Assembly: GCA_025360715.1 (NCBI GenBank)
Contig: JANYBS010000022.1
Span: forward strand, 1-45,844
Reading direction: 5' to 3'
DNA length: 45,844 nucleotides
Source of the DNA: Candidatus Eiseniibacteriota bacterium
GTDB taxonomy: Bacteria; Eisenbacteria; RBG-16-71-46
Every line of letters starts with the position of its first letter. The stretch's first letter is position 1. Made by a program: the position numbers and the translations under genes. Shown piece after piece: positions 32,800-45,844 of this stretch. The notes beneath the pieces were generated by a model that was given only the letters and a program-made list of their open reading frames with translations, did no database searches and was not told the origin of the DNA.

Positions 32800-34119
32800 T
32801 CATCCTTCCTTGTGTGCGGGACGAACCCGCAGCGTGAGTCCGTCGGCGTCAAGGATCCTCACCTCGGAACCGGTCTCGGCGGCCCTGTCGGCCACCGCAT
32901 TCCACACTTCACCATCGATGCGCACACGGCCCTCGGGCGCGAGGCGCTCCACGACAAGCGCATGGCGGCCCACCAGCGCGCTCGCGCCGGTCGCGACCGG
33001 CATCTGCTGCGCGCGCATGCCGGCGCCGATCAATCCGAAGAAGAACAAGACGGTCGCCGCCGTGCAACCCACCAACACCGGCAACGCCACGTGCAGCGTG
33101 TCGGCCTTGAAGAGCATGAGGCCGCCCAGCAAGAGCGCGATCGCGCCGCCGACGGCGAGCAGGCCGTGGCTGTGCACTTTCACTTCCGCGAGCAAGAACG
33201 CCAAGCCGAGCACGAGCAGTGCGACGCCGGTCGAGTTCACGGGCAGCGTCGAGAGCGCGAAGAAGCTCAGCAGCAGACTGATGCCGCCCACGACGCCGGG
33301 CAGGATCGCGCCAGGATTCTGCATCTCGAAGATCAATCCATAGAAGCCCAGCATCATGAGCAGATACGCGATGTTCGGGTCCGCGATGCCGCGCAGCAGC
33401 CGCTGGCGGAAGTCCGGCGCCAGGTGCGTGACACTCGCGCCGCGCGTGTGAAGCGTGAGCAGGCGCTCCCCACGGCGGTACGTGCGGCCGTCGGCCTTGG
33501 CAAGCAGGTCGGCTTCGTCGCCGGCGATGTAGTCGACGACGCGCAGAACGACCGCCTCCCGCTCGTTCGCGGCCACGGCGCGGCGCACGGCTTGCTCGGC
33601 CCAGTCGGCGTTGCGCCCGCGCTGCAGCGCCACCGAACGTGCCAGCGCCGCGGCGTCGTTGGTGACCTTGCGCGCGAGCGTCGAATCCATCGGCCCGGTC
33701 ATGGAGATGGGCGTCGCCGCGCCGATATCGGTGCCGGGCGACATGACCGCGATATCGGAAGCCATCACGAGCAGCACACCGGCCGAGGCTGCGTGCGCGC
33801 CCGCGGGCGTGACCCACATGATCACCGGCGCCTCGCTGGCCAAGAGGCGCTTGATCATCTCGCGCATGGTCGACTCGAGTCCGCCTGGTGTGTCGAGCCG
33901 CACGAGCAGCACGTCGTGCTCGGCGTCGGCGCGCTCCAGTGCGCTGCGCAGCGCGTCGTCCATGCCCGGCGTGACGGCGCCCGAAAGCTCGATCGCGAGG
34001 ACGTGCGCGCCTTGCTCGGCAGCCGCCGGCACCGTGCGAACCGCGTCGCCCGCGAGCGCAGACGCGGGCGCGAGCCAGACTGCCATCGCGAGCAGCGCCG
34101 CGAGGCGGGCGGCGTTCAT
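32800..34119 (-). CDS. nfeD: NfeD long-form (ClpP-class) membrane serine protease
   Basis: 439 residues. Signal peptide (LAALLAMAVWLAPASALA), periplasmic ClpP-fold protease domain (38-230) with a Ser-Lys dyad: S112 in GAHAASAGVLL and K151 in LARKVTNDAAALA, matching the archaeal 1510-N stomatin protease. A four-to-five helix membrane domain (about 265-380) follows, then a C-terminal OB-fold NfeD domain (VGRHALVVERLAPEGRVRIDGEVW, read in pieces). It is known to cleave the stomatin-like partner, here encoded next. The start ATG at 34119 overlaps the threonine synthase stop as ATGA. Confidence 0.94.
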   Translation of the reverse strand: MNAARLAALLAMAVWLAPASALAGDAVRTVPAAAEQGAHVLAIELSGAVTPGMDDALRSALERADAEHDVLLVRLDTPGGLESTMREMIKRLLASEAPVIMWVTPAGAHAASAGVLLVMASDIAVMSPGTDIGAATPISMTGPMDSTLARKVTNDAAALARSVALQRGRNADWAEQAVRRAVAANEREAVVLRVVDYIAGDEADLLAKADGRTYRRGERLLTLHTRGASVTHLAPDFRQRLLRGIADPNIAYLLMMLGFYGLIFEMQNPGAILPGVVGGISLLLSFFALSTLPVNSTGVALLVLGLAFLLAEVKVHSHGLLAVGGAIALLLGGLMLFKADTLHVALPVLVGCTAATVLFFFGLIGAGMRAQQMPVATGASALVGRHALVVERLAPEGRVRIDGEVWNAVADRAAETGSEVRILDADGLTLRVRPAHKEG

Positions 34120-35342
34120 GCGCTTGCGTCCTGCGGCACGCGGCGCGCGAGCGCCTGGCGCCATGCGTCCAGGTACTTGAGGCCGCTGCCGGTGTCGTAG
34201 ATCACCACGCGCTCGTTCGCGCGCACCTCGCCACTTGCGCGCAGTTGCTTGAGCGCCGCAAGCGTCGCGCCACCCTCGGGGCAGACGAACGTGCCTTCGA
34301 GCTGGGCGATCTCGCGCATGGCGTCGAGCATGTCGGCTTCACTCACGGCCACCGCGGTGCCGTGCGTCTCGCGCACGGCGCGCAGGATGAGCGCGTCGGC
34401 GAACGGCGAAGGTACGCGCAAGCCGCTCGCGACCGTGTGCGCATCGACCCACGGCTGCGCGGATGATTCACCGGCGTCGAACGCGCGCACGATCGGCGCG
34501 CAACCGGCCACCTGCACGCTCACCAGCCGCGGCAGGGGGATGGCCTTGGGTAGCCAACCGAGCTCCTGCATCTCGAGGAACGCGCGCCACATGCCCACCA
34601 GGCCGGTGCCACCGCCGGTGGGATACAGGATCACATCGGGAAGCGTCCAACCCAACTGCTCGGCGATCTCATAGCCGAGCGTCTTCTTGCCTTCGAGACG
34701 GAACGGCTCCTTGAACGTGGCCACGTTCCACCAGTCCGGCGCCTTGCACCATTCCGCGATGAGCTTGCCCGCGTCGGCGATGGTGCCCTTGACCAGCCGC
34801 ACCTCGGCGCCGAACGCCTGCTGTTCCAGGATGAAGGCTTCGGGCGTGTCCTCGGGCACTGCGACTCGGCACGGCAGGCCCGCGGCCGCCGCGTATGCCG
34901 CCGCCGCGCTACCGGCGTTGCCCGCCGACGGCAGCGCGATGCCGCGCGCTCCGAATGCCAGCGCGCCGTTCACGGCCATCACCAGTCCGCGCGCCTTGAA
35001 CGAGGCGGTGGGATTGCCGGCTTCGGCTTTCATCCAGAGTTCCGCCACACCGGCGGAATCACCCAGGCGCGCGAGCGGCAGCAGCGGTGTGCCGCCCTCG
35101 CCCAGGCGCACGGCCGGGAAGTCCGCGGCGAACGGCAGCACTGCGCGATAGCGCCACAGGTCGGTGCCGAAGCGGCCCAGCGAATCGCGCGGGACCTCGG
35201 CTTTGATGCGCACGAGATCGTAACGCGCCACGAGCGGCTTGCCGCACGTGGGACACACGTTGCGCGGCTGCGAGAGATCGCACGTGCCGCCGCATGCCGG
35301 GCAATCGAGCGCGAGCAGGTACGGATTGAAGGCATTGCGCAT
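34116..35342 (-). CDS. thrC: Threonine synthase, PLP-dependent (ThrC2-like with zinc ribbon)
   Basis: 408 residues. Converts O-phosphohomoserine to threonine. N-terminal zinc ribbon C14-P-A-C17 ... C30-P-T-C33, then the fold-type II PLP core: GEGGTPLL, Schiff-base lysine K116 in PTASFKARG, SAGNAGSAAAAYAAAAG, phosphate loop YPTGGGTGLVG and C-terminal VIYDTGSGLKYLD. This pattern matches long-ribbon threonine synthases of many bacteria and archaea. The start is ATG 35342, 2 nt after the rsgA stop, or GTG 35348 overlapping it as GTGA. The larger frame to 36431 runs through rsgA and is not real. Confidence 0.93.
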   Translation of the reverse strand: MRNAFNPYLLALDCPACGGTCDLSQPRNVCPTCGKPLVARYDLVRIKAEVPRDSLGRFGTDLWRYRAVLPFAADFPAVRLGEGGTPLLPLARLGDSAGVAELWMKAEAGNPTASFKARGLVMAVNGALAFGARGIALPSAGNAGSAAAAYAAAAGLPCRVAVPEDTPEAFILEQQAFGAEVRLVKGTIADAGKLIAEWCKAPDWWNVATFKEPFRLEGKKTLGYEIAEQLGWTLPDVILYPTGGGTGLVGMWRAFLEMQELGWLPKAIPLPRLVSVQVAGCAPIVRAFDAGESSAQPWVDAHTVASGLRVPSPFADALILRAVRETHGTAVAVSEADMLDAMREIAQLEGTFVCPEGGATLAALKQLRASGEVRANERVVIYDTGSGLKYLDAWRQALARRVPQDASA

Positions 35343-35344
35343 GC

Positions 35345-36307
35345 TCACGTTCGTTCTCCTTCGAGTTCCGCGCGGAGCTTCTGGAACGACGCGAAGCGCC
35401 GTTTGTGGATCTCGCCGCGCTCGAGCGCGCCATGCAGCGCGCAGCCCGGTTCGCGGTCGTGCCTGCAGTCGCCGAAGCGGCACTGGCCCAGCAAGTGCTG
35501 CCACTCGGGGTAATACTCCTCCAGCGTGCTGCCGTCCACTCCCCAGAGCCCGAACGCCCGCACCCCCGGCGTGTCGATGAGCTCCGTCCCCTGCCCCAGC
35601 CGCAGCAGCAGCGCCGCGGTGGTGGTGTGGCGGCCCTTGCCGGTGGTCTCGTTGACCTCGCCCTGTAGCAGTTCGTGGCCCGGCGCCAAGCGCGCCAGCA
35701 GCGTGCTCTTGCCTACGCCCGAGTGGCCCACGAAGAGCGAGCGCTTGCCGCGCGTGGTGGCCTCCAACACGTCGACGCCACGGCCCGTCGCCGCGCACAT
35801 GGCATGGCCGGTGATGCCGGCAGCGGCGTAGTCCGCAAGGATCTCGCTGGCCTCGGCCTCTTCGCCCAGATCGGTCTTGTTGAGCGCGAGCACCGCCGGG
35901 ATGCCGGCGTACGCCGCCTGCACGAACACGCGGTCGACGAGGCCCGGCTTGAAGTCGGGGCGGCGCAGCGAGGCCACGACCACGACCTGGTCCACGTCGG
36001 CGGCGACCACCTGCTCGAGCGGACGCTCGCCGCTGGCGCGTCGCGAGAACGCGCACCGGCGTGGCGCGACGGCCTCGACCATGGCGCGCTCGCCTTCCCA
36101 CGCGAGCGTCACGCGGTCGCCCACGACCACGGCGTTGCCGAGCGACTTCTTCTTGCCCATGAGCTTGCCGCGCGCGATCGCGATGAACTCGTGGCCATCT
36201 TCGCCCAGCAGCGCGATGCCGCCGAAATCCACCCTGCGCACGACCGCCTGCAGCGGCCATGTCTGCTCCGGCGCGCGCGTCTGCTCCGGCGCGTCGTTCA
36301 GTTCCAC
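35345..36307 (-). CDS. rsgA: Ribosome small-subunit-dependent GTPase A
   Basis: 320 residues, circularly permuted GTPase that helps 30S maturation. OB-fold N-terminus, then G4 NKTD (143-146) before G1 GHSGVGKS (194-201), G2/T motif GKGRHTTT (224-231) and G3 DTPG (245-248), the permuted order of RsgA. The C-terminal zinc site is C276, C281, H283, C289. The start is GTG 36307, overlapping the histidine kinase stop by 10 nt and preceded by GGGAGC. A repeated PEQT near the N-terminus (8-16) is an oddity outside the conserved fold. Confidence 0.96.
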   Translation of the reverse strand: MELNDAPEQTRAPEQTWPLQAVVRRVDFGGIALLGEDGHEFIAIARGKLMGKKKSLGNAVVVGDRVTLAWEGERAMVEAVAPRRCAFSRRASGERPLEQVVAADVDQVVVVASLRRPDFKPGLVDRVFVQAAYAGIPAVLALNKTDLGEEAEASEILADYAAAGITGHAMCAATGRGVDVLEATTRGKRSLFVGHSGVGKSTLLARLAPGHELLQGEVNETTGKGRHTTTAALLLRLGQGTELIDTPGVRAFGLWGVDGSTLEEYYPEWQHLLGQCRFGDCRHDREPGCALHGALERGEIHKRRFASFQKLRAELEGERT

Positions 36308-37728
36308 GCTCCCGGTCCGCGAAGGGGCAGGACGATCTTGAAACGCGCGCCCTCTCCGACCTTGCTCTCGACCGTGATGCGGCCGCCGTGATTCTCGACA
36401 GTGCGATGGCTCGTGGACAAGCCGAATCCATGGCCGTCAGGCTTGGTCGTGAACATGAACTCGAACATGCGGTTCAGGTGCTCCGGCTTGATCCCCGGGC
36501 CACTGTCGGCCACCTCGACCCGCGCGCTCTTGCCAGGCTCATCGAGCTTGGTGCTGACGCTGATGACCTTGGGCTTTTCCTGCGACGCCATGGCGTCGGC
36601 AGCATTCACGAAGAGGTTGATGAAGACTCCCTGGATCTGACCGACGTCGCCGCGCAGTTCGGGCAGGGCGGGATCGAGATCCACATCCCACTCCACACTG
36701 CGGAAGCGTGATTCGCCCTTCACGAATTCGATCGTGCTCATGAGCAGGGCGTTCAGGTCCATCGGTTCCGCGTTGACCTTGTTGCGAGTGTAGTCCATGA
36801 GGCCCTTGGAGAGCACCCCCATGCGCTTGGACTGCTCCAGGATGATCTGCGAGTGCCGCGATGCATTCTCGAACTTCTGCCGCTCGGCATCCTTGATGAG
36901 CATCTGTGCGCGGGCCGTGATGGCGACCAGATGGTTGTTCATCTCATGGCCGATACCCGCCGCGAGCTCACCCTTGGCGGCGAAGACGGCGTTGCGCAGG
37001 TTCTGCTCCTCCGCCTTCTTGAGCTCGAGGTAGCGGCGGTCCGACTGGTAGATCATGAAGAGCGGCGCATAGAAGAGCAGCACGCCGGGGTAACCGATCG
37101 CCGTGTACGAGATGACCATGAGTGGCACCAGCAGGAACGCCGCGGCGTCGACCTCGAGGCGCGCCAGGTAGAGCCAGTCCTCACGGACGACACGCCACCA
37201 GCCACGCTCATTCGACGACCACGCCACGGCGAGGGCGACCATGCCGCGGTTCACCGCGTAGTACGCGAGCACCAGGCCGATGAACGGCAGCACCAGCGTG
37301 GTCGCAGCCGCGCGGTCGAGCGCCACGCCGCCGGGGCCCGATGGCAACGCCAGCCGGCCGCCGAGCGCCAGGAACGCCGCGCTCGAGAGCCAGGCGGCAA
37401 CCGAGATCTGCGCGGCATTGAACACCGCGCGGATCCCCGGCTTGCGCTGCACGAACAAGTCGCCGAGCAACGTGCTCGTCATGCTGACCCAGATGCCAGC
37501 CGACGATCCGAAGAGCACGATCGCCGAGAGCCCCGCCGTGGACGAGAGACTCACGGTCGAGTCGCCCGCCATGGTGGCGCTCCACATGGTCTCGGAAACG
37601 AGACAGATCACGATCCACGCGACCAGATGTCCCCACTGGGTGGCGAACGCCGGCGGCACGTGGGTGCCGAGCAAGGCCAGAGCGGCCACGATCGTGGCCA
37701 CGAGGAACACGCGAAAGCGCCGACTCAT
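36298..37728 (-). CDS. Membrane sensor histidine kinase
   Basis: 476 residues. The N-terminal sensor is all-membrane: about eight hydrophobic helices within 1-230, MASE1-like, with no visible periplasmic domain. Cytosolic kinase: phospho-acceptor H261 in AAGIGHEMNNHLVAI (the HxxxN form GHEMNN), N box NLFVNAADAM, G1 DSGPGI, F box FMFTTKPDGHGFGL. GHEINNPL/HEMNNHL kinases often work with atypical regulators. No response regulator gene lies within the window. The ATG at 37728 overlaps the dgcA stop as ATGA; the longer frame to 38208 is a shadow in that gene. Confidence 0.9.
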   Translation of the reverse strand: MSRRFRVFLVATIVAALALLGTHVPPAFATQWGHLVAWIVICLVSETMWSATMAGDSTVSLSSTAGLSAIVLFGSSAGIWVSMTSTLLGDLFVQRKPGIRAVFNAAQISVAAWLSSAAFLALGGRLALPSGPGGVALDRAAATTLVLPFIGLVLAYYAVNRGMVALAVAWSSNERGWWRVVREDWLYLARLEVDAAAFLLVPLMVISYTAIGYPGVLLFYAPLFMIYQSDRRYLELKKAEEQNLRNAVFAAKGELAAGIGHEMNNHLVAITARAQMLIKDAERQKFENASRHSQIILEQSKRMGVLSKGLMDYTRNKVNAEPMDLNALLMSTIEFVKGESRFRSVEWDVDLDPALPELRGDVGQIQGVFINLFVNAADAMASQEKPKVISVSTKLDEPGKSARVEVADSGPGIKPEHLNRMFEFMFTTKPDGHGFGLSTSHRTVENHGGRITVESKVGEGARFKIVLPLRGPGAWN

Positions 37729-38753
37729 GCGCGCGAGCCTGCCACGGCCGGCGTCACGCCAAGGCCCGGCGCATCCGAAAGCGCGATTCCCCCCTGCTCG
37801 CCCGGCGCACCCGCGAAGGGATCGTCGGCGATGAGCCAGTGGCCATCGAGGTCGAGGTAGTCGGCGAGCGGTGCGAGCTGCGCGGCGGCGGAGAGCGCCA
37901 GCGAGCTCTCGACCATGGAGCCGAGCATGACCTGCATGCCATGCGCGCGCGCCGCGTGGATCATGCGCAGCGCCTCGCGGATACCGCCGGTCTTCATGAG
38001 CTTGAGGTTCACACCGTCGACGCGGCCGGCGAGCCGGGCGATGTCGGCCAGATGGTGGCAGCTCTCGTCGGCGAAGACCGGGATCGGGCTGCGCGCGCGC
38101 ACGAACGCAAGGCCGTCCAGGTCTTCGCGCGCGACCGGCTGCTCCACGAGCTCGATACGCAGCGGCGCGATCTCGTGCAGCACCCGCACCGCGCTCGCGG
38201 CATCCCACGCGGCATTCGCGTCCACCTGGATGCGGCCGTCATAGTGAGCGCGCACGCGACGCAGGTTCTCCACGTCGCCGGGGCCGCCGAGTTTGACCTT
38301 GATGGCCGGGAAGGCTTTCACCGTCTCGAGCTTCGCGAGCATCTCGGCCTGCTCGGCCATGCCGAGCGTCACGCACGACACTGGCGTCTGCGCTCGGTCC
38401 AGTCCCAGCATCTTCCACACGGGCATGCCGAGTTTCTTGCCCTGCCAGTCGTAGAGCGCCATCTCGAGCGCGGCGTGCGCGGCATCATGTCCGGCGAGGG
38501 TGGCCGTGCAGCGAGCGTGAATCGCCTCGAGCGCGAAGGGATCGTCGCCGATCGCAGGCGCCCACGCGTCGAGCGCGACGGCCACCGTCTCGGGCGACTC
38601 GCCGTAGTAGCGCGACGGCGCAGCTTCGCCCAGACCCTCGATGCCCTCGTGCGTGAACCTCACGAGCGTGTTGCGCTGGACCGACTTGCCGCCACGTGCG
38701 ATGCGGAACTCGAAGATCGTGCGCAGCTCGAGCGGTTCATGCCGCACCGGCAT
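37725..38753 (-). CDS. dgcA: Enolase-superfamily racemase/epimerase, DgcA-like (N-acetyl-D-Glu racemase or dipeptide epimerase)
   Basis: 342 residues of the muconate-lactonizing/dipeptide-epimerase branch. Catalytic KxK is K152-V-K154 (AIKVKLGG); metal ligands D178 (VDANAAW), E204 (VEQP), D229 (ADES); the opposing base is K251 (NLKLMKTGG). SMVESS near 270-280 is typical of Ala-Glu epimerases. Because the gene just upstream is a DUF1611/DgcN, the pair matches the DgcN-DgcA pathway in which D-Glu is N-acetylated and then racemised to N-acetyl-L-Glu. L-Ala-D/L-Glu epimerase is the main alternative. Its ATG overlaps the dgcN stop by 17 nt. Confidence 0.85.
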   Translation of the reverse strand: MPVRHEPLELRTIFEFRIARGGKSVQRNTLVRFTHEGIEGLGEAAPSRYYGESPETVAVALDAWAPAIGDDPFALEAIHARCTATLAGHDAAHAALEMALYDWQGKKLGMPVWKMLGLDRAQTPVSCVTLGMAEQAEMLAKLETVKAFPAIKVKLGGPGDVENLRRVRAHYDGRIQVDANAAWDAASAVRVLHEIAPLRIELVEQPVAREDLDGLAFVRARSPIPVFADESCHHLADIARLAGRVDGVNLKLMKTGGIREALRMIHAARAHGMQVMLGSMVESSLALSAAAQLAPLADYLDLDGHWLIADDPFAGAPGEQGGIALSDAPGLGVTPAVAGSRA

Positions 38754-39819
38754 CGCGCCTCCGCTCCTCGCAGCGGCGCGCGATCACCTGCGCCAGAGGT
38801 TCCGCGTTGAAGCGCACCGGGTCCACGATCGGCAGCCCGGTGAGCTGGTTGGCATGCTCGAGCGCGCGCTTGGCTTCGGTCTCATCGAGGGTGGTCGTGT
38901 TCAGTGCCACGCCCAGCACGCGCGCGGGCTGCACCCAGCCAGCCGCACGCTCGTAGTCGCGGATGAGTTCGCTGAGCGACTTGATGCGCGGCGCAGGTCC
39001 GGCCTCGCTCACCCGCAGGTGCGTGCGGCCGGCCGCGTGGCAGAGCACCATGGCGTCGGCACACGCGCCGTGCATGAGGCCCAGCGTCACGCCCGAATAC
39101 GCCGGATGATGGAGCGCGCCCTGGCCCTCGACGATCACCACGTCGGCATCGCGCGCCGCCTCGATCACCAGCTCTTCGGTGAAGCCCGCGACGAAATCGC
39201 TCACGACCGCATCGACGGCCACGCCGTGATCGGCGATCAGGATGCCGGTCTGGCCCGTAGCCACGAACTTCGCGCGCAGCCCCATGGCCGTGAGCGCCTG
39301 CTTCAGCTCGAGCGACGTGGTCATCTTGCCCACGTTGCAATCGCTGCCAACCGTGAGCAGGACCATCGCGTCGACCGCGGCAGCACGCCGCGACGCGATC
39401 GGCCGGCGCGCCGGCGAGCGGCGCACGTCGTGGATCGTGCAGCCCTTGGACGCGGCGAGCGTCGCCAACTCGAGGTCGTCCGCCAGGAACTGATGGAGCC
39501 CGGAGAAGATGTCCCAGCCGCGCAGCAGCGCCTCCGCGACCGTCTGCCGCCACGAGGACGGCAGCGTTCCACCCTGCGGCGCGACGCCGATCACCAGGCC
39601 ATCGGCCTCGAATGCTGCGGCAGCCTCGAGGTTCGCGACCACGGGGATATCGCCGCCCACTCCCACGCACGACCGCGACGTGCGGCCGGCCTTGGTGGAG
39701 TCGATGACTGCGACCACTTCCTCGGGCCGGTACCGCAACAGACCGACTGCCGTCTTCGCATCGGACGCGGAGAAGCTTCCCTCCGCCAGCAGCGCCAACC
39801 GTCTCGGCTTGCCCAGCAT
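38737..39819 (-). CDS. dgcN: DUF1611 P-loop protein, DgcN-like N-acetyltransferase
   Basis: 360 residues of the DUF1611 family: an N-terminal Rossmann-like part (1-150) and a C-terminal P-loop-like part with LLTVGSDCNVGKMTTSLEL (about 154-172), VIVEGQGALHHPAYSGVTL and VLGVALNT. The family had no function until DgcN of Pseudoalteromonas was described as a D-glutamate N-acetyltransferase paired with DgcA; I transfer that role on the basis of the identical neighbour pair, not of sequence comparison. It starts 13 nt after the bshA stop. Confidence 0.75.
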   Translation of the reverse strand: MLGKPRRLALLAEGSFSASDAKTAVGLLRYRPEEVVAVIDSTKAGRTSRSCVGVGGDIPVVANLEAAAAFEADGLVIGVAPQGGTLPSSWRQTVAEALLRGWDIFSGLHQFLADDLELATLAASKGCTIHDVRRSPARRPIASRRAAAVDAMVLLTVGSDCNVGKMTTSLELKQALTAMGLRAKFVATGQTGILIADHGVAVDAVVSDFVAGFTEELVIEAARDADVVIVEGQGALHHPAYSGVTLGLMHGACADAMVLCHAAGRTHLRVSEAGPAPRIKSLSELIRDYERAAGWVQPARVLGVALNTTTLDETEAKRALEHANQLTGLPIVDPVRFNAEPLAQVIARRCEERRRDAGAA

Positions 39820-39832
39820 GGATCCCTTCCGC

Positions 39833-41041
39833 TCAGCGAAGCGACTCGTAGACCCGCACGTACCGCTGGACCATCTCCTCCGCGCTGAACCGCTCGCGCG
39901 CGACTCGACGGCCGCGGCGGCCCATGGTCCGGCGCAGCTGCTCGTTCGTGAGCAGTTTCAGCGACGACTCCACGTAACCGGCCACGTTCCCGGGGTCGTG
40001 CAAGAACCCGGTGAAGCCATGCTCGACCACCTCCGGGATGCCGCCGGCATTCGAGGCGACGACGGGCACTTCGGCACTCATGGCTTCGAGGGCCACGAGG
40101 CCGAAGCTCTCGGAGGAGCTCGGCAATAAGAAGATATCGGCCAACGGGAGCAGCTCCTCCATACAGTCCTGATTGCCCAGGAAGAGGACGTCGCGGTGCA
40201 CGCCCAGCTCGCGGGCGAGCTGCTCCGCCCCCGCCTTCTCCGGGCCGTCGCCGACCAGGACCAGCTTGGACGGGATGCGGCGGCGGACTTCAGCGAAAGT
40301 CTGGATGATCACCGGTATATTCTTGACCGCACGGAAGTTAGACGCGTGCATAAGAACCTTGGTGCCGGGCGCGGCCAGACTCAGGCGACCCCGCCTCCGG
40401 GGCGTGAATACGGCGGGGTCGACGAAGTTGTAGATGACCTCGATCGGCTGGGTGGCCCCGAAGGTGGACTCCGCCTTCTCTTTCAGATAGGTGCTCACCG
40501 CGGTGATGCGGTCGCTCGATTGCATGCTGAACTGCGTCACGCGGAAGTACGCCGGCTCGGCGCCGATCACCGTGATGTCGGTACCGTGCAGTGTGGTGAC
40601 CACACTCAGCTGGCGCGGCAGCATGATCTGCTTGGCCAGGTAGGCGCTCGTCGCGAACGGCATCGCGTAGTGCACGTGCAGGACGTCCAGGTGATGGTTC
40701 TCAGCGACTTCGACCATCTTGGTCGCGAGCGCCAGGTTCGATGGCGCTTCGTCGAACACCGGGTAGAAGGCCGGCGAGGACTCGTGGAAGTACACGTTCG
40801 ATTCGAAGCTGCGCAAGCGGAAGGGCAATCGCGAGGCGATGAAGTGCACCTCGTAACCGCGGCGCGCGAGTTCGAGTCCCAGCTCGCTCGCCACGACACC
40901 ACTGCCGCCGAAGTGCGCGTAGCAGCTGATGCCGATCCGGATCGGCCGGCGCTTGGCGCGGCGTTTGGCAGCAGCGTGCGCCTTGTCTGCGGCCGCCGAT
41001 GCCTTGGTCGCCTTCTTCTTACCGGCCACGGCCCTCTTCAT
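39833..41041 (-). CDS. bshA: BshA, N-acetyl-alpha-D-glucosaminyl L-malate synthase
   Basis: 402 residues, GT4 glycosyltransferase for the first step of bacillithiol synthesis (UDP-GlcNAc plus L-malate). BshA markers: [40 protein letters not shown] (a region normally near EVxxYPLF), [44 protein letters not shown] and EX7E in [12 protein letters not shown]. An unusual N-terminal extension (8-33) is almost only Lys, Arg, Ala, Ser and Thr, like a histone H1 tail; typical BshA begins at about residue 34 here. The ATG at 41041 overlaps the bshB1 stop as ATGA. Confidence 0.93.
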
Positions 41042-41757
41042 CTGTCGCCCCTCCGTGCCCCCAGCAGCGCGCGTGGATCGCCCAGCACGATCGGACCGCG
41101 AAGGCGGTAAGCTTCGCCATACATCGCTCCCGCCACCGCGCCGAAGACGCGGCCTCGGCCCTCGACCTCGCCCAGGAAGCCTGGCGCCGTCAGGTACGTG
41201 CCCGGTCCCGCCGCGGGATCGAGCTGGCTCTTGTGCTCGCGCAGGGCCGCCATGCGCTTCTCCCATACCGCCGACACGTCGACCACCAGGTTGGGGCTCG
41301 CCGTGCCGCGATAGAGCGCGTACAGCAGCCGCTCGGGACGCCAGCGCTCGAGCGATGCGGGATAGCGCGCAAGGCCCGACAAGTAGCAGGCGCGTGTCAC
41401 CAGTTCGGAGGACTCCACGTGATCGGGATGCGGATCGGCGCGGTCGGGCGCGACCACGAGCCGCGGCCGGAAGCGCCGCAGGCATTCGACCACCGCGCGC
41501 AGCTGCTCGCGGTCGGTGCGGTCCAGGCCGCCATCGGGCAGCGCGAGCGTGCTGCGATGCGCCACACCCAGTTGCTTCGCCGCGGCCTCGGCCTCGGCGG
41601 CGCGTATCTCGACGGTGCCGCGCGTGCCCAGCTCGCCACGCGTGAGATCGATGATGCCGACCGCCATCCCCGAAGCCGCGAGCAGGGCCGCGAGGCCGCC
41701 GCTCGTGAGCTCGACATCATCGGGGTGCGAGCCGAAGAACAGTGCCTCGAGTTCCAC
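41038..41757 (-). CDS. bshB1: BshB1, GlcNAc-malate deacetylase for bacillithiol synthesis
   Basis: 239 residues of the LmbE/PIG-L zinc deacetylase family, second step of bacillithiol synthesis. Zinc and catalytic residues: H11-P-D-D14 (GSHPDDVEL) and DPHPDH (108-113). IDLTRGELGTRGT and KSQLDP are typical BshB1 blocks. GTG start directly after the bshC stop (TGAGTG), no gap. Confidence 0.95.
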   Translation of the reverse strand: MELEALFFGSHPDDVELTSGGLAALLAASGMAVGIIDLTRGELGTRGTVEIRAAEAEAAAKQLGVAHRSTLALPDGGLDRTDREQLRAVVECLRRFRPRLVVAPDRADPHPDHVESSELVTRACYLSGLARYPASLERWRPERLLYALYRGTASPNLVVDVSAVWEKRMAALREHKSQLDPAAGPGTYLTAPGFLGEVEGRGRVFGAVAGAMYGEAYRLRGPIVLGDPRALLGARRGDR

Positions 41758-43380
41758 TCAAGCCTCCAGCAGGAAGTGCTCGTGCACGCCCTCGGCGGTA
41801 TGGCGGGCATGCTCCGCCGCGAGGACGCAGAGATCGCCGACGACGGCGGAGCCGCGCCGGGCGATCGGATCGAGCGACGCCAGGCGCCGCTCCTGAAGCT
41901 TGCCACCCGGCAGTAGCACATAGCGCAGCCGCCGCCACGCGGGATGATCTTTGTCGAGCTTGCCCTTGACCTTGCCGACGAGCCCTTCGTGCAACCGGGA
42001 GAACTGGAAGTCCACCTTACCGCGCGCCGACTCCACCATCTGCGGCAGGCTCGGATCGAGCGAGCGCGAGGCATGCGCGAAACGCTCGAGCCCGTCCATG
42101 GCCGCCGCGCGCGCCTGCGTGAGCTCTTGCTCGAGCGCGGCAGGAATCTGAAGTGTCGCGACCTCGTTGATCACCGCATCGGTCTGCGCGACCACCCGCC
42201 ACGCCAGGGCACCGCTCGCCTCAAGGAGCTTGCACGCTTCGGCCGGCATCCACGTGGCACCGAAACGCGGCACCGGCACTGCGGGCTGCACGCCCACGCC
42301 TTCGAAGACCTCGCGCAGTTGAGCCAGATAGGCGATCTCGCCGGGCCCGCACGCCATGGCGACCGTCGGAAAGACGCCGTCCTGCACCGCGGGACGCATC
42401 GCGACGCTCGGGCTGAGCGTGACGTCCGCGCCATGCGCCAAGGCCTCGGCGGCCGCGATCTTGACGCGCCGGCCGCCCTGCACCTGGAAGACGAACGAAT
42501 CGAGCGACGCATCGCTGAGCGGATGCTTGCCGCAGAGCGACTCGAGCCGGGCACCCGCCGCCTTGGCCGCAGCCTCGAGCGCGGGCGCGTTCGCCAGGTA
42601 GCGATCGAGGATCACGCGCGCGGCCGTGCGGAACTCGGGCAGGCGCGGGTCGACCACGACAAGGCCAGCATCGGCGAAGAGCTGCAGCATGAGCGCGCTC
42701 GTCGCCTCGCCCAGGTCGCGCGCGTTCGCGCTGGCGCGCTGCCAAAGCGCGCGCGCGTCGGCCTCGCCGGCCAGACCTGCGTAGAACACCAGGGCCTCTT
42801 GCGTGACTGTGGCGACTGCGGCGATCGTGATGTCGCCGACCAAGCCACCGTCGACATGCACGTCACCCGGCAAGTTCACGTCGTGCACGACCGAGTCGAC
42901 ATCCGAGACGCTCACGCCGCGGATCTCATCGAAGTCACTGTCTTCGCCATGCATCCAGTACATCGGTACGCATGGGATCTGCGTGCGCTCGGTGACGACC
43001 GTGGCAAGCCCCACGGCGCCCGCGGTCTTGTGCAGGGAGTACAGCGGCCCACCCAGCGGCGCGGGCTGCTGGCCCGTGACTGACGCCACGGCCTCGCCGC
43101 GCACGAGGCGCTCGAGGTTGGCGAGCGACGCCGGCGATGCACCCAGGCGCTGGTGGTAGGCAGTCATCGCGCGCGCCAACTCGGCACTCAGCGGCGCCCG
43201 CTTGGCCAGCGCAAGCTCGCGCAGGGACTCCGTGTCGCGCCAGGAACGCGCGAAACGCTCACGCGAGAGCACGCCGCCCGAAAGCAGATCGGCGGTGAGC
43301 GAGTCTTGCAGCCGGTCGAACGGCGCTTCGGGACTTGGCAGCGCCCGGCCCAGCACCGTGAGGGTGCGTGCGCTCAACAC
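41758..43380 (-). CDS. bshC: BshC, putative cysteine ligase of bacillithiol synthesis
   Basis: 540 residues from GTG 43380. Third step: adds cysteine to glucosaminyl-malate. BshC features: SVTGQQPAPLGGPLYSLHKTAG (SVTGQQ...GGPLY...K), PMYWMHGEDSDFDEI (the VFWxxxEDHDxxEI block with Asp-Ser for Asp-His), KHPLSDASLDSF, PSVAMRPAVQDGVFPTVAMACGPGEIAYLAQL in pieces, and a C-terminal coiled coil followed by ARHTAEGVHEHFLLEA. The start is preceded by GGGGGCGA; a GTG at 43392 has no ribosome binding site. First gene of the operon. Confidence 0.94.
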   Translation of the reverse strand: MLSARTLTVLGRALPSPEAPFDRLQDSLTADLLSGGVLSRERFARSWRDTESLRELALAKRAPLSAELARAMTAYHQRLGASPASLANLERLVRGEAVASVTGQQPAPLGGPLYSLHKTAGAVGLATVVTERTQIPCVPMYWMHGEDSDFDEIRGVSVSDVDSVVHDVNLPGDVHVDGGLVGDITIAAVATVTQEALVFYAGLAGEADARALWQRASANARDLGEATSALMLQLFADAGLVVVDPRLPEFRTAARVILDRYLANAPALEAAAKAAGARLESLCGKHPLSDASLDSFVFQVQGGRRVKIAAAEALAHGADVTLSPSVAMRPAVQDGVFPTVAMACGPGEIAYLAQLREVFEGVGVQPAVPVPRFGATWMPAEACKLLEASGALAWRVVAQTDAVINEVATLQIPAALEQELTQARAAAMDGLERFAHASRSLDPSLPQMVESARGKVDFQFSRLHEGLVGKVKGKLDKDHPAWRRLRYVLLPGGKLQERRLASLDPIARRGSAVVGDLCVLAAEHARHTAEGVHEHFLLEA

Positions 43381-43445
43381 TCGCCCCCGCACTCGGGGAG
43401 CGACGAGATGAACGGGCGGCAGAAGGCAGGACGGGAAGGGCGCAT
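43374..43445 (-). CDS. Possible 23-residue Cys-containing leader ORF overlapping bshC start
   Basis: ATG 43445 opens 23 codons ending in TGA 43376-43374, which overlaps the bshC GTG start region. The peptide would have cysteines at 9, 19 and 23 and end ECGGEC. It starts just a few nucleotides after the transcription start expected from the promoter at 43455-43484, so it would be read as a leaderless message. Speculative: the peptide is short and arose in a GC-rich region. Confidence 0.2.
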   Translation of the reverse strand: MRPSRPAFCRPFISSLPECGGEC

Positions 43446-43600: not shown

Positions 43601-44290
43601 TCAGCGCCGGGGACGGCCCGTGCGCGCGGCGAGCGCGGCAGGCGTCAGCGCCGCGACCCGCTCCCACGCTTGGCGTCCGCGCGCCGCAGCGGCGGGCGAT
43701 GCCTGCGCGAGCCCGCGCTCCAAAGCCGCAGCGACCTGCGTGCGCGTCGCTCCCACGCGCAGCGAGCCGAGCAGGTGGCTGATCAGTTGCCGCTCCCAGC
43801 CCAGCGCGGCAAGCGCCGCGACCGTGAGCAACTCGCGCTCGCACGTACCGAGCCCGGCGCGCGCGAGCACGCGGCCGTAGCCATGTTCCACCATGTAGAC
43901 CGCAAGATCGGGGTGCAATGCCTGCACCGCCGGCAGCAGCTTGGCGTACGCGGGGCCATACACGCGCCGGCACAGTGCTTCGCCGCGCGCACGCCACCTG
44001 GCCGGGCCGCCTTCGCGCGTGCGCTTCGCGCGCCCTGGCCAGACTTCGTGCAACACGCGCAGGCTCTCGAGCGCGGCCGGGAAGCCCGCGTAGAGCATGA
44101 GCATGAGGGCGCACTCCTGCGCGTGCACGCGGCGGCGCTTGGCGGCGCGGGCGCGCAGCAGGGCGTCGCGTGCGGCGTCTCCGCGTTGCACGGCCATCGC
44201 GGCGGTGAAGTCGCACAATGCGGCGAGTCCCGGCGTGAGTGCATGCTTGGCGCGCGGCGCGCGCGGCTCTGGAATCCTTGACGCTCCCAT
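43601..44290 (-). CDS. Carboxymuconolactone decarboxylase (CMD) family protein
   Basis: 229 residues. C-terminal half: ALHPDLAVYMVEHGYGRVLARAGL, CERELLTVAALAALGWERQLISHLLGSLRVGATRTQV match CMD helices. The N-terminal half (HAQECALMLMLYAGFPAALESL) looks like the end of another CMD unit, so this is the double-CMD form. The AhpD-type CxxC is replaced by WERQ, so disulfide reductase activity of the AhpD kind is not expected. It lies upstream of the bacillithiol operon on the same strand, separated by 220 nt with a promoter candidate, so probably not in the same unit. Role unknown. Confidence 0.8.
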   Translation of the reverse strand: MGASRIPEPRAPRAKHALTPGLAALCDFTAAMAVQRGDAARDALLRARAAKRRRVHAQECALMLMLYAGFPAALESLRVLHEVWPGRAKRTREGGPARWRARGEALCRRVYGPAYAKLLPAVQALHPDLAVYMVEHGYGRVLARAGLGTCERELLTVAALAALGWERQLISHLLGSLRVGATRTQVAAALERGLAQASPAAAARGRQAWERVAALTPAALAARTGRPRR

Positions 44291-44359
44291 GGTGCTGCCA
44301 CACTATCGCCCGGCTCCGACGCACTGCAACCGCCACGCACTTCACTGGAGGCGATCCTC

Positions 44360-45517
44360 GTGTCCACGCCTGCGCCCGATGATGTGACGCGCGCTGCGGG
44401 CTCGGCGCTGTGGACATTCCCCGCCGTGCTCGGCAGCGCGTTCCTGGTCGCTTGGGCCGCCGAGGCCGCGCAGTTCTACATCTCGCAAGGGCTGGCGCTC
44501 GCGCTGCTGGCGTGGGTGCAGGTGCTGCCGGAATTCGCCGTCGAGGCCGCGATCGCGTGGCATCGGGACGTGCCGCTCATGACCGCGAACTTCACGGGCG
44601 CGCTGCGGCTGCTCACTGGCTTGGGCTGGCCGGTGATCTGGATCACCTTCGCATTGGCCCGCCGCGCGCGCGGCGAGAAGGGCTTCTTCGCGCACATCGT
44701 GCTCGATGAGGAACACGCGGTCGAGGTGGTCGGACTCACGCCCGCGCTGGTGTACTTCGCGCTCATCATCGCCAAAGGCTCGCTCACACTCGTGGACTCG
44801 GGCGTACTGCTGGCGATCTACGGCGCCTATCTGGCGCTGATCAACCGCATCCCGCCGCGCGAGCACGAAGAAGCCGAGGACGCCGGCGCGGTGCCGCGCG
44901 CGATCCTCCAGCTGCCCTCCCCCTGGCGAGCCCTGAGCGTGCTCGGCCTCTTCCTGGTCGGCGCGCTGGTGCTTTACTTCGCGGCGCATCCGTTCCTGAC
45001 CAGCATGATCGGCTTGGCCACGATGTTCGGCGTCTCGCAGTTCGTCTTCGTGCAGTGGGTCGCGCCGTTCCTGAGCGAATTCCCCGAGTTCACGACCACC
45101 ACCTACTGGGCGCGCAGCCGCGGCAAGGCCGGCATGGCGCTCATGAACATGGCGTCCAGCAACATCAATCAGTGGACGGTGCTCGCGGCGATGATCCCGA
45201 TCGTGTACTCGCTCTCGCTCGGCCATGCGGCCGCGGTGCCGCTCGCCGCGCACCGCACCGAGCTGTGGCTCACGTTGCTGCAAGGCGCGCTCGGCGTCGT
45301 CCTGCTGAGCAACTTCGACTTCCGCGCCTACGAGGCGCTGGGGCTGCTCGCGCTGTGGTTCGCGCAGTTCCTCTTTCCGAACCTGCGCGGCCTGTCCTGC
45401 TGGCTCTACGGCGCGTGGCTCGTGCTCGAAGTGGCATCGGTACTCTGGCGCGAAGGCCGCTTGCGCGCGTTCGCGGTATTCCCGCGCCTGTGGCGCGCGC
45501 ACCCGCCCGCTCGCTAG
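44360..45517 (+). CDS. CaCA-superfamily sodium/calcium exchanger-like membrane protein
   Basis: 385 residues, about ten to eleven transmembrane helices in two halves joined by an acidic loop (EHEEAEDAG near 170). Alpha-1 region: [16 protein letters not shown] ... [12 protein letters not shown]. Alpha-2 region: [20 protein letters not shown] ... [14 protein letters not shown]. Each keeps an acidic residue after Leu-Pro or Leu-Ser, like the GTSLPE motif, and the position of GNxxGSN, but the canonical residues are degenerate (TANFTGAL and NMASSNI). The function as a cation exchanger is thus likely by fold, its ion uncertain. GTG start with GGAGG 8 nt upstream. Divergent from the CMD gene; uppP follows 34 nt downstream. 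Confidence 0.75.
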
Positions 45518-45551
45518 CGGCGTTCGCGCGGCGCGTGCTAACGTCTTCGCC

Positions 45552-45844
45552 ATGCTCATGCACATGCTACCTCTCGCGGGCGTCCTCACGCCTTTCCAAG
45601 CGTTCATCCTGGGAGCGGTCCAGGGCCTGACCGAACTGCTGCCGATCTCGAGCAGCGCGCACCTTTACATCGTGCCCACCGTGCTCGGCTGGCATTACGA
45701 GGGCGTCGCCTTCGACGTGGCCTTGCACGGCGGCACGCTCGTGGCGCTCATGATCGCCTTCGGCAAGGACTGGCTGCAGCTGGCCACCGACGTCTTCGCC
45801 ATGGACACGCGCGTGGCCAAGGCGGCGCGCGACCTGTGGCTCAA
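45552..45844 (+). CDS. uppP: Undecaprenyl-diphosphatase UppP, N-terminal part (cut by window end)
   Basis: 97 residues visible, frame open to the window end. [23 protein letters not shown] contains the UppP/BacA signature block (family EGLTExLPVSSxxH), with the catalytic Glu of GLTE and the Ser-rich motif; helix 2 is [19 protein letters not shown]. It dephosphorylates undecaprenyl pyrophosphate to recycle the carrier lipid for peptidoglycan and glycan synthesis. ATG 45552 chosen as first Met; two further in-frame Met codons lie within five residues. Confidence 0.93.

Follow-up and report, generated by a model that had tools for sequence, protein, structure and literature searches.

The closest described counterparts of the genes considered here fall into two groups. 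In Pseudoalteromonas and other marine bacteria, adjacent dgcN and dgcA genes (family models NF041892 and NF042940; solved structure 7XRJ, titled 'N-acetyltransferase DgcN-25328') specify a route to L-glutamate (L-Glu) from D-glutamate (D-Glu), in which DgcN is reported to carry out N-acetylation using acetyl-coenzyme A (acetyl-CoA). The second group comprises dipeptide epimerases, including E. coli YcjG, whose L-Ala-D/L-Glu epimerase function is established, B. subtilis YkfB, 3JVA, and 3IJI/3IJL/3IJQ (BT_1313), which we take to be a dipeptide epimerase. Here we compare with both groups a pair of genes found in a 45,844-nucleotide stretch (the window; contig JANYBS010000022.1, our contig C98) of the 4.29-Mb, 96% complete genome of a Candidatus Eiseniibacteriota bacterium, to which, among named organisms, Candidatus Eisenbacteria are closest (identity of the DUF1611 protein up to 74%). 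The two genes are as follows.

38737-39819, minus strand: dgcN-like gene, 360 amino acids, DUF1611 family with a Rossmann-like N domain and a SIMIBI-type P-loop C domain (from Pfam, NCBIfam, a structure model and the match to 7XRJ)
37725-38753, minus strand: dgcA-like gene, 342 amino acids, enolase superfamily, MLE subgroup, dipeptide-epimerase-like (from Pfam MR_MLE_N/C, NF042940, PDB match and residues)

The initial annotation had placed a DUF1611 gene and an enolase-superfamily epimerase gene directly after bshA, and this was borne out. Both open reading frames (ORFs) are intact and carry the expected Pfam domains, they overlap by 17 bp, and 13 bp separate the bshA stop from the dgcN ATG, which is immediately preceded by GGAAGGGATCC. 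We thus confirmed a real, conserved DUF1611-epimerase pair inside a tight gene run. As in the marine systems, the same two families are adjacent and in the same order, and the DUF1611 fold and the epimerase catalytic residues are alike; the window differs in that its proteins score below the family cut-offs, its epimerase belongs to another clade, and the pair follows a bshC-bshB1-bshA gene run. From the dipeptide epimerases, with which the window enzyme has in common the MLE subgroup, the KxK motif plus second lysine, the metal ligands and a DxD motif, it differs by being paired with a DUF1611 gene and by having no adjoining murein peptidase gene of the kind found at ycjG and ykfB. The control genomes, E. 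coli and B. subtilis, gave no DUF1611 match.

We observed that the dgcN-like product matched both halves of the DUF1611 family (DUF1611_C, 233.9 bits; DUF1611_N, 98.5 bits; both over the Pfam cut-offs), and an AlphaFold2 model of its 360 residues had a mean predicted local distance difference test score of 94.6. Near-whole-chain structural matches of this model were 2OBN (Z 45.3), 2G0T (Z 38.0) and 7XRJ (Z 37.4, root-mean-square deviation 3.6, 330 residues aligned with VIA-align), and the modelled protein has the same fold as the solved DgcN. The protein is also 38% identical over 331 amino acids to a Tritonibacter protein (L135) that is, by eye, near-identical but not identical to the 7XRJ stretch. 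In the epimerase, we observed all of the residues K152/K154, D178, E204, D229 and K251, and the catalytic lysines K154 and K251 and metal ligands D178, E204 and D229 were conserved in 39/39 rows. The roles of the catalytic lysines are treated in section 4 of PMC5808125; the accessible part of PMC3605383 holds nothing on specificity residues.

The two genes also occur together. Of 47 genomes of the phylum, 23 have the DUF1611 gene in full, and in G078 a 61-residue remnant is left; an epimerase match of at least 226 bits was present in all of the 23 and in 2 of the other 24 (Fisher p 2e-11, a figure that ignores kinship). A wider locus set began with 298 pattern-matching stretches: 146 of them proved to encode a relative, and we retained the 80 best. 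Our script called a DUF1611 gene in 78 of these 80, and denominators of 78 given below refer to them. In 25 DUF1611-bearing genomes of our own choice from the 80 loci plus the window, which included Gemmatimonadales with unlinked genes, an epimerase match was found in every case (25/25, best match at least 126 bits). The weakest of these best matches, at 126 bits, was a frame-broken copy in G035, and in G030 a distance of about 69 kb apparently separates the two genes on a single contig of 496,503 bases. This co-occurrence, which is kept when the genes are unlinked, supports functional coupling.

With these observations in hand, we interpret the pair as a divergent, Eisenbacteria-type DgcN-DgcA module for salvage of D-Glu through N-acylation and racemisation, and we judge the prospects of this interpretation to be about even. 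The DUF1611 protein would N-acylate D-Glu, most likely by acetylation with acetyl-CoA; one catalytic lysine of the epimerase would remove the alpha-proton of N-acyl-D-Glu and the second would return a proton from the opposite side, with Mg2+ holding the carboxylate; and a deacylase encoded elsewhere would free L-Glu. The most likely role would be to recover D-Glu released when peptidoglycan is turned over or when cell walls are scavenged. What we infer here is which acyl donor and which direction apply, that D-Glu is the substrate and that it comes from the cell wall; the genes, their coupling, the fold and the catalytic residues are what we observed. The module interpretation is favoured by the DgcN family and fold, by DgcA being the best-scoring model for the epimerase, by the co-occurrence and by the conserved catalytic residues, as well as by the amidohydrolase genes that relatives have near dgcN or dgcA and by a Halorussus pair beside an NlpC/P60 gene and near dacB, both described below. 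The initial annotation had likewise matched the pair to the D-Glu route: the fold, the co-occurrence and the best model agree with that match, and the family scores and the position of the epimerase outside the clade of named DgcA proteins do not.

A number of findings weigh against the module interpretation, and we take them together in this and the following two paragraphs. The DUF1611 protein reached only 280.1 bits on the DgcN model NF041892 (cut-off 480; Pseudoalteromonas DgcN as control, 493.1) and the epimerase 244.8 bits on the DgcA model NF042940 (cut-off 400; Pseudoalteromonas and Vibrio DgcA as controls, 402.0 and 416.2), so that the names DgcN and DgcA were the earlier reader's interpretation. 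A LysR-type (DgcR) gene adjoins the pair in Pseudoalteromonas and Vibrio, and none adjoins it in the window. In a 28-row epimerase tree, drawn from 62 rows of an earlier quick tree (L129, frame broken; L147, L131, L132, duplicates; and L009, partial, had been left out before), the plasmid-record DgcA rows, namely three annotated dgcA genes and the unannotated Tritonibacter one, formed one clade with YcjG (100/100), the haloarchaeal epimerases grouped with YkfB and 3JVA (99/95), and the window clade (85/89) was separate from both. A clade of window-type and named DgcA proteins without dipeptide epimerases was rejected (log-likelihood difference 146.5; approximately unbiased test, p 7e-100, a value that is not strictly a priori since the grouping was picked after the quick tree had been seen); DgcA rows as a clade without YcjG were not rejected (p 0.10). 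The C-terminal DxD (D301/D303), presumably the dipeptide-amine site of these epimerases, was present in 38/38 rows covering the site, named DgcA proteins included. At the 20s-loop position of an arginine that takes part in substrate binding, the window protein has R, and 11/11 close Eisenbacteria relatives compared have H, L, V or S.

The main alternative is that the epimerase is an L-Ala-D/L-Glu dipeptide epimerase that recycles stem peptides, the DUF1611 protein having a separate or auxiliary step; we regard this as possible though somewhat unlikely. In its favour, besides the conserved DxD, the closest PDB match of the epimerase was 3IJI/3IJL/3IJQ (6.4e-67), and the protein shares 40% identity with BT_1313, 39% with the Tritonibacter epimerase, 34% with YcjG and 31% with Pseudoalteromonas DgcA; moreover, YcjG itself lies inside the named-DgcA clade and exceeds the DgcA cut-off (424.1 bits against 400; 677.2 on its own model). 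Against it, a dipeptide epimerase leaves the near-perfect co-occurrence with DUF1611, even in unlinked form, unexplained; the neighbours of the epimerase gene in the window are dgcN and a histidine kinase gene, with no murein peptidase gene beside the pair such as mpaA next door to E. coli ycjG; and the DgcA model outscored the YcjG model for this protein (244.8 against 148.0 bits). Neither of two discriminating tests that we tried could separate the two functions. Residue comparison, which had been proposed earlier as a check, bore out the conservation of the catalytic residues, but the KxK motif, metal ligands and DxD are common to DgcA and dipeptide epimerases. The NCBIfam cut-offs failed also: Vibrio dgcA exceeds the YcjG-model cut-off just as YcjG exceeds that for DgcA, each being highest on its own model, and 'DgcA' is therefore not readable from sequence. 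As a separate matter, the NF042940 equivalog model may mislabel L-Ala-D/L-Glu epimerases where a better model does not compete.

Two genomes, G072 and G078, were the only ones observed to retain dgcA without an intact dgcN, a point that favours the dipeptide-epimerase alternative and argues against strict dependence of dgcA on dgcN. In G072, which is 96% complete, no DUF1611 match was found anywhere in the genome and dgcA directly follows bshA (locus L140); in G078 (L141, G078:C60, 3983-4213), a decayed 5' dgcN stretch lies between intact bshA and dgcA. Neither contig contains any N, although both are metagenome-type, many-contig assemblies in which local assembly error is possible. The ratio of nonsynonymous to synonymous substitution rates of dgcA to the nearest compared relatives was 0.19 for G072 and 0.26 for G078 (0.09-0.37 in six other pairs); such values average the time before and after loss and are no proof of selection since dgcN was lost. 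Genomes of this kind provide a natural test of the epimerase substrate.

The remaining points against the module concern D-Glu metabolism in the same genomes. The window's genome has MurI (239.5 bits; cut-off 146.65), which is itself able to racemise D-Glu. Murein LD-carboxypeptidase (PF02016) was found in 0/23 DUF1611 genomes and 12/24 others, an exclusion pattern that is confounded with lineage. NlpC/P60 was present in 5/5 genomes searched, four of which carry the pair, and the cell wall is a plausible source of D-Glu.

The P-loop of the DUF1611 protein bears on what kind of chemistry it may perform. Outside its own family, the best Foldseek match was cyclic 2,3-diphosphoglycerate synthetase (E 3.9e-8), and in the VIA-align results the C domain resembled SIMIBI P-loop enzymes in rows 4-50, with Z values from 15.1 down to 13.0 and 166-191 residues aligned. 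These included cobyrinic acid a,c-diamide synthase (5if9) at Z 15.1, Soj and MinD at Z 14.9-14.6, cyclic 2,3-diphosphoglycerate synthetase at Z 13.9 and dethiobiotin synthetase at Z 13.6-13.0. The DUF1611 tree included 39 of 94 rows and two PDB stretches. Invariant in the 39-row alignment were G158, D160, C161, G164, K165, M166, T167 and E231-G-Q-G, which we take to resemble GTDTEVGKT and VEGAGG of dethiobiotin synthetase; the profile match to that enzyme at the same P-loop was not significant (E about 0.5). DgcN is reported to belong to the GNAT acetyltransferase superfamily. Among the 50 structural matches listed, which one domain type filled, no GNAT title appeared besides 7xrj, an absence that we do not count as evidence. 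CoA chemistry on a P-loop NTPase fold would be unusual. Fold and invariant residues alike would suit an enzyme that uses ATP to activate or ligate D-Glu, or a peptide containing it, ahead of the epimerase step. We consider such an enzyme decidedly unlikely, given the acetyl-CoA-dependent N-acetylation reported for DgcN, in which the P-loop could bind the CoA phosphates, and given that a common fold is no proof of ATP use and that, outside the 39-row alignment, C161 is replaced by S in L143 and M166 by R in L136. A broader proposal, unlikely in our estimation, would make DUF1611 a general partner that has joined independently at least three dipeptide-epimerase clades (the marine DgcA/YcjG type, the haloarchaeal/YkfB type and the Eisenbacteria-Gemmatimonadota type near BT_1313). 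On its SIMIBI P-loop fold, the protein would use ATP or CoA to drive an N-modification after which D-Glu, or a peptide containing it, can be racemised, and in Eisenbacteria lineages without murein LD-carboxypeptidase the module would take the place of classical stem-peptide recycling.

We also considered two other directions for the pathway. Reverse operation, in which the pair would make D-Glu for the cell wall, might be suggested by the absence of a MurI match from 8/47 genomes searched (completeness not given), including both of the Planctomycetota and the Sumerlaeota genome; we reject such a synthesis route for the window's genome, which has MurI itself, and regard this proposal as extremely unlikely. 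In the Planctomycetota genomes G037 and G043 and the Sumerlaeota genome G045, DUF1611 and the epimerase are present with no glutamate racemase match in the assemblies. Alternatively, the pair might feed N-acetyl-L-Glu, the first arginine intermediate, into arginine synthesis as a bypass of N-acetylglutamate synthase, and ArgB was indeed over its cut-off in 16/23 DUF1611 genomes against 4/24 without. This bypass was not supported and is very unlikely: no ArgB over cut-off was found in the other 7/23, including G061 and G063 (97% complete), and both ArgJ (440.9 bits) and ArgB (212.4 bits) are encoded in the genome from which the window comes.

The genes surrounding the pair in the window are these.

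43601-44290, minus strand: CMD-family gene upstream of bshC (PF02627, 30.1 bits; cut-off 23)
41758-43392, minus strand: bshC (TIGR03998, 274.3 bits; cut-off 265.8; start uncertain, 43392 or 43380)
41038-41757, minus strand: bshB1 (TIGR04001, 240.6 bits; cut-off 182.5)
39833-41041, minus strand: bshA (TIGR03999, 480.7 bits; cut-off 273.7; start from scripted gene call)
36298-37728, minus strand: sensor histidine kinase (HATPase_c over cut-off; same position in relatives)
35345-36307, minus strand: rsgA (TIGR00157, 186.5 bits; cut-off 100)
34116-35342, minus strand: thrC (NF006050, 522.5 bits; cut-off 303)

The minus-strand order is thus the CMD-family gene, bshC, bshB1, bshA, the DUF1611 gene, the epimerase gene, the histidine kinase gene, rsgA, thrC, nfeD and slipin. 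From bshC through thrC, every gene overlaps its neighbour or lies at most 13 bp from it, the overlap of dgcA with the histidine kinase gene being 4 bp, and the run is spaced like one transcription unit, as predicted from gene spacing. The promoter scan gave one weak promoter-like site, at 43484-43455 on the minus strand, a short way ahead of bshC (0.2 such sites expected); terminator-like sites, weak also, were no more than at chance level in the scan. The sensor histidine kinase gene, conserved in position among relatives, has no response regulator gene directly adjoining it. A long ORF at 44342-45607 (minus strand) runs antisense to the gene for a Na+/Ca2+ exchanger (PF01699; 44360-45517, plus strand) and is probably not a real gene, its tblastn matches in relatives being accounted for by conservation of the exchanger gene on the opposite strand.

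Among the 78 loci, the gene immediately upstream of the DUF1611 gene is bshA in 15, and that immediately downstream is the epimerase gene in 25. All 15 bshA-adjoining loci fall among the 17 titled Eisenbacteria, and adjacency shared by 15/17 is not chance. Of the two others, the contig of L067 begins at dgcN, and in L074 one opposite-strand gene intervenes, the L142 counterpart of which belongs to the Cu-oxidase_4 family and is presumably PgeF-like. By coordinates, bshA is directly beside the DUF1611 gene in 19 of the 23 genomes; about 1 kb separates them in G059 and G061, they are on different contigs in G060, and G063 has the DUF1611 gene and no BshA over cut-off. The initial annotation had read the linkage to bacillithiol genes as a pointer to D-Glu use. 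All three bsh genes upstream of the pair do exceed their NCBIfam cut-offs, but BshA was over cut-off in 22/23 DUF1611 genomes and also in 19/24 without a full DUF1611 gene (p 0.19), and in loci outside Eisenbacteria the pair, or either gene alone, has other neighbours. A functional link is thus unsupported; to our knowledge bacillithiol contains no Glu. The bacillithiol genes are probably operon neighbours and nothing more, and the link is one of conserved gene order, with no evidence of function.

Neighbourhoods in other lineages differ from that in the window. The proteins of the Gemmatimonadota clusters L066, L073 and L081, in which the gene order is uvrA, two serine dehydratase genes, dgcN and dgcA (uvrA and serine dehydratase recognised from the proteins, with no family scan), and of separate Gemmatimonadales loci are about 44-54% identical to those of the window; no bsh genes were found in the fetched flanks, and in Gemmatimonadales dgcN and dgcA are not neighbours. 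There (L016-L065), the DUF1611 gene usually has a PspA gene upstream within two genes, an arrangement counted in 45 of all 78 loci, and the flanks retrieved, which extend to 10 kb at most and often stop at a contig end, showed no epimerase gene in a table that omits matches both shorter than 40% of the query and below 80 bits. A gene for an AI-2E-family permease is often near dgcN (29/78 loci), and one was observed also in Eisenbacteria L068. A histone-deacetylase-family gene, the family being tested on one representative, lies within two genes of dgcA on the same strand for 16 of 20 called epimerase genes (the broken L129 copy is not among these), adjoining it directly in 12; the four without belong to the Sumerlaeota (two genes) and Planctomycetota genomes. 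In Gemmatimonadota L113-L128 this neighbour was present in 16/16, usually with a PriA-like gene (by eye) on the opposite side. Its product may act as a polyamine deacetylase or may be the missing N-acetyl-glutamate deacetylase; genes of this family, present in 42/47 genomes of the phylum, are too common to inform. In G063, a gene for an M20 hydrolase, with best NCBIfam matches below cut-off, is directly upstream of dgcN, and in Halorussus an NlpC/P60 gene precedes the DUF1611-epimerase pair, with dacB three genes on and on the other strand. Such amidohydrolase, NlpC/P60 and dacB neighbours, none of which is inside the window, fit removal of an N-acyl group or work on peptidoglycan.

The initial annotation had pointed to the occurrence of the pair outside Pseudoalteromonas, but the taxonomic spread of dgcN is already published: the accessible part of PMC12363236 reports dgcN from 32 class-level clades of Mariana Trench genomes, and that of PMC10845958 mentions the DgcN-DgcA route. 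We found no literature on the pair in Eisenbacteria or beside bacillithiol genes, in a search that covered few subscription papers. Since the second enzyme comes from a different branch of its family, the exact reaction needs a bench test. For surveys that count 'dgcA', it matters that N-acetyl-D-Glu racemases and L-Ala-D/L-Glu epimerases are not told apart by the current DgcA family cut-off. Should the proposed function hold, salvage of D-Glu by N-acylation would be an old and widespread route and not a marine speciality, and it would extend to phyla known mainly from environmental metagenomes.

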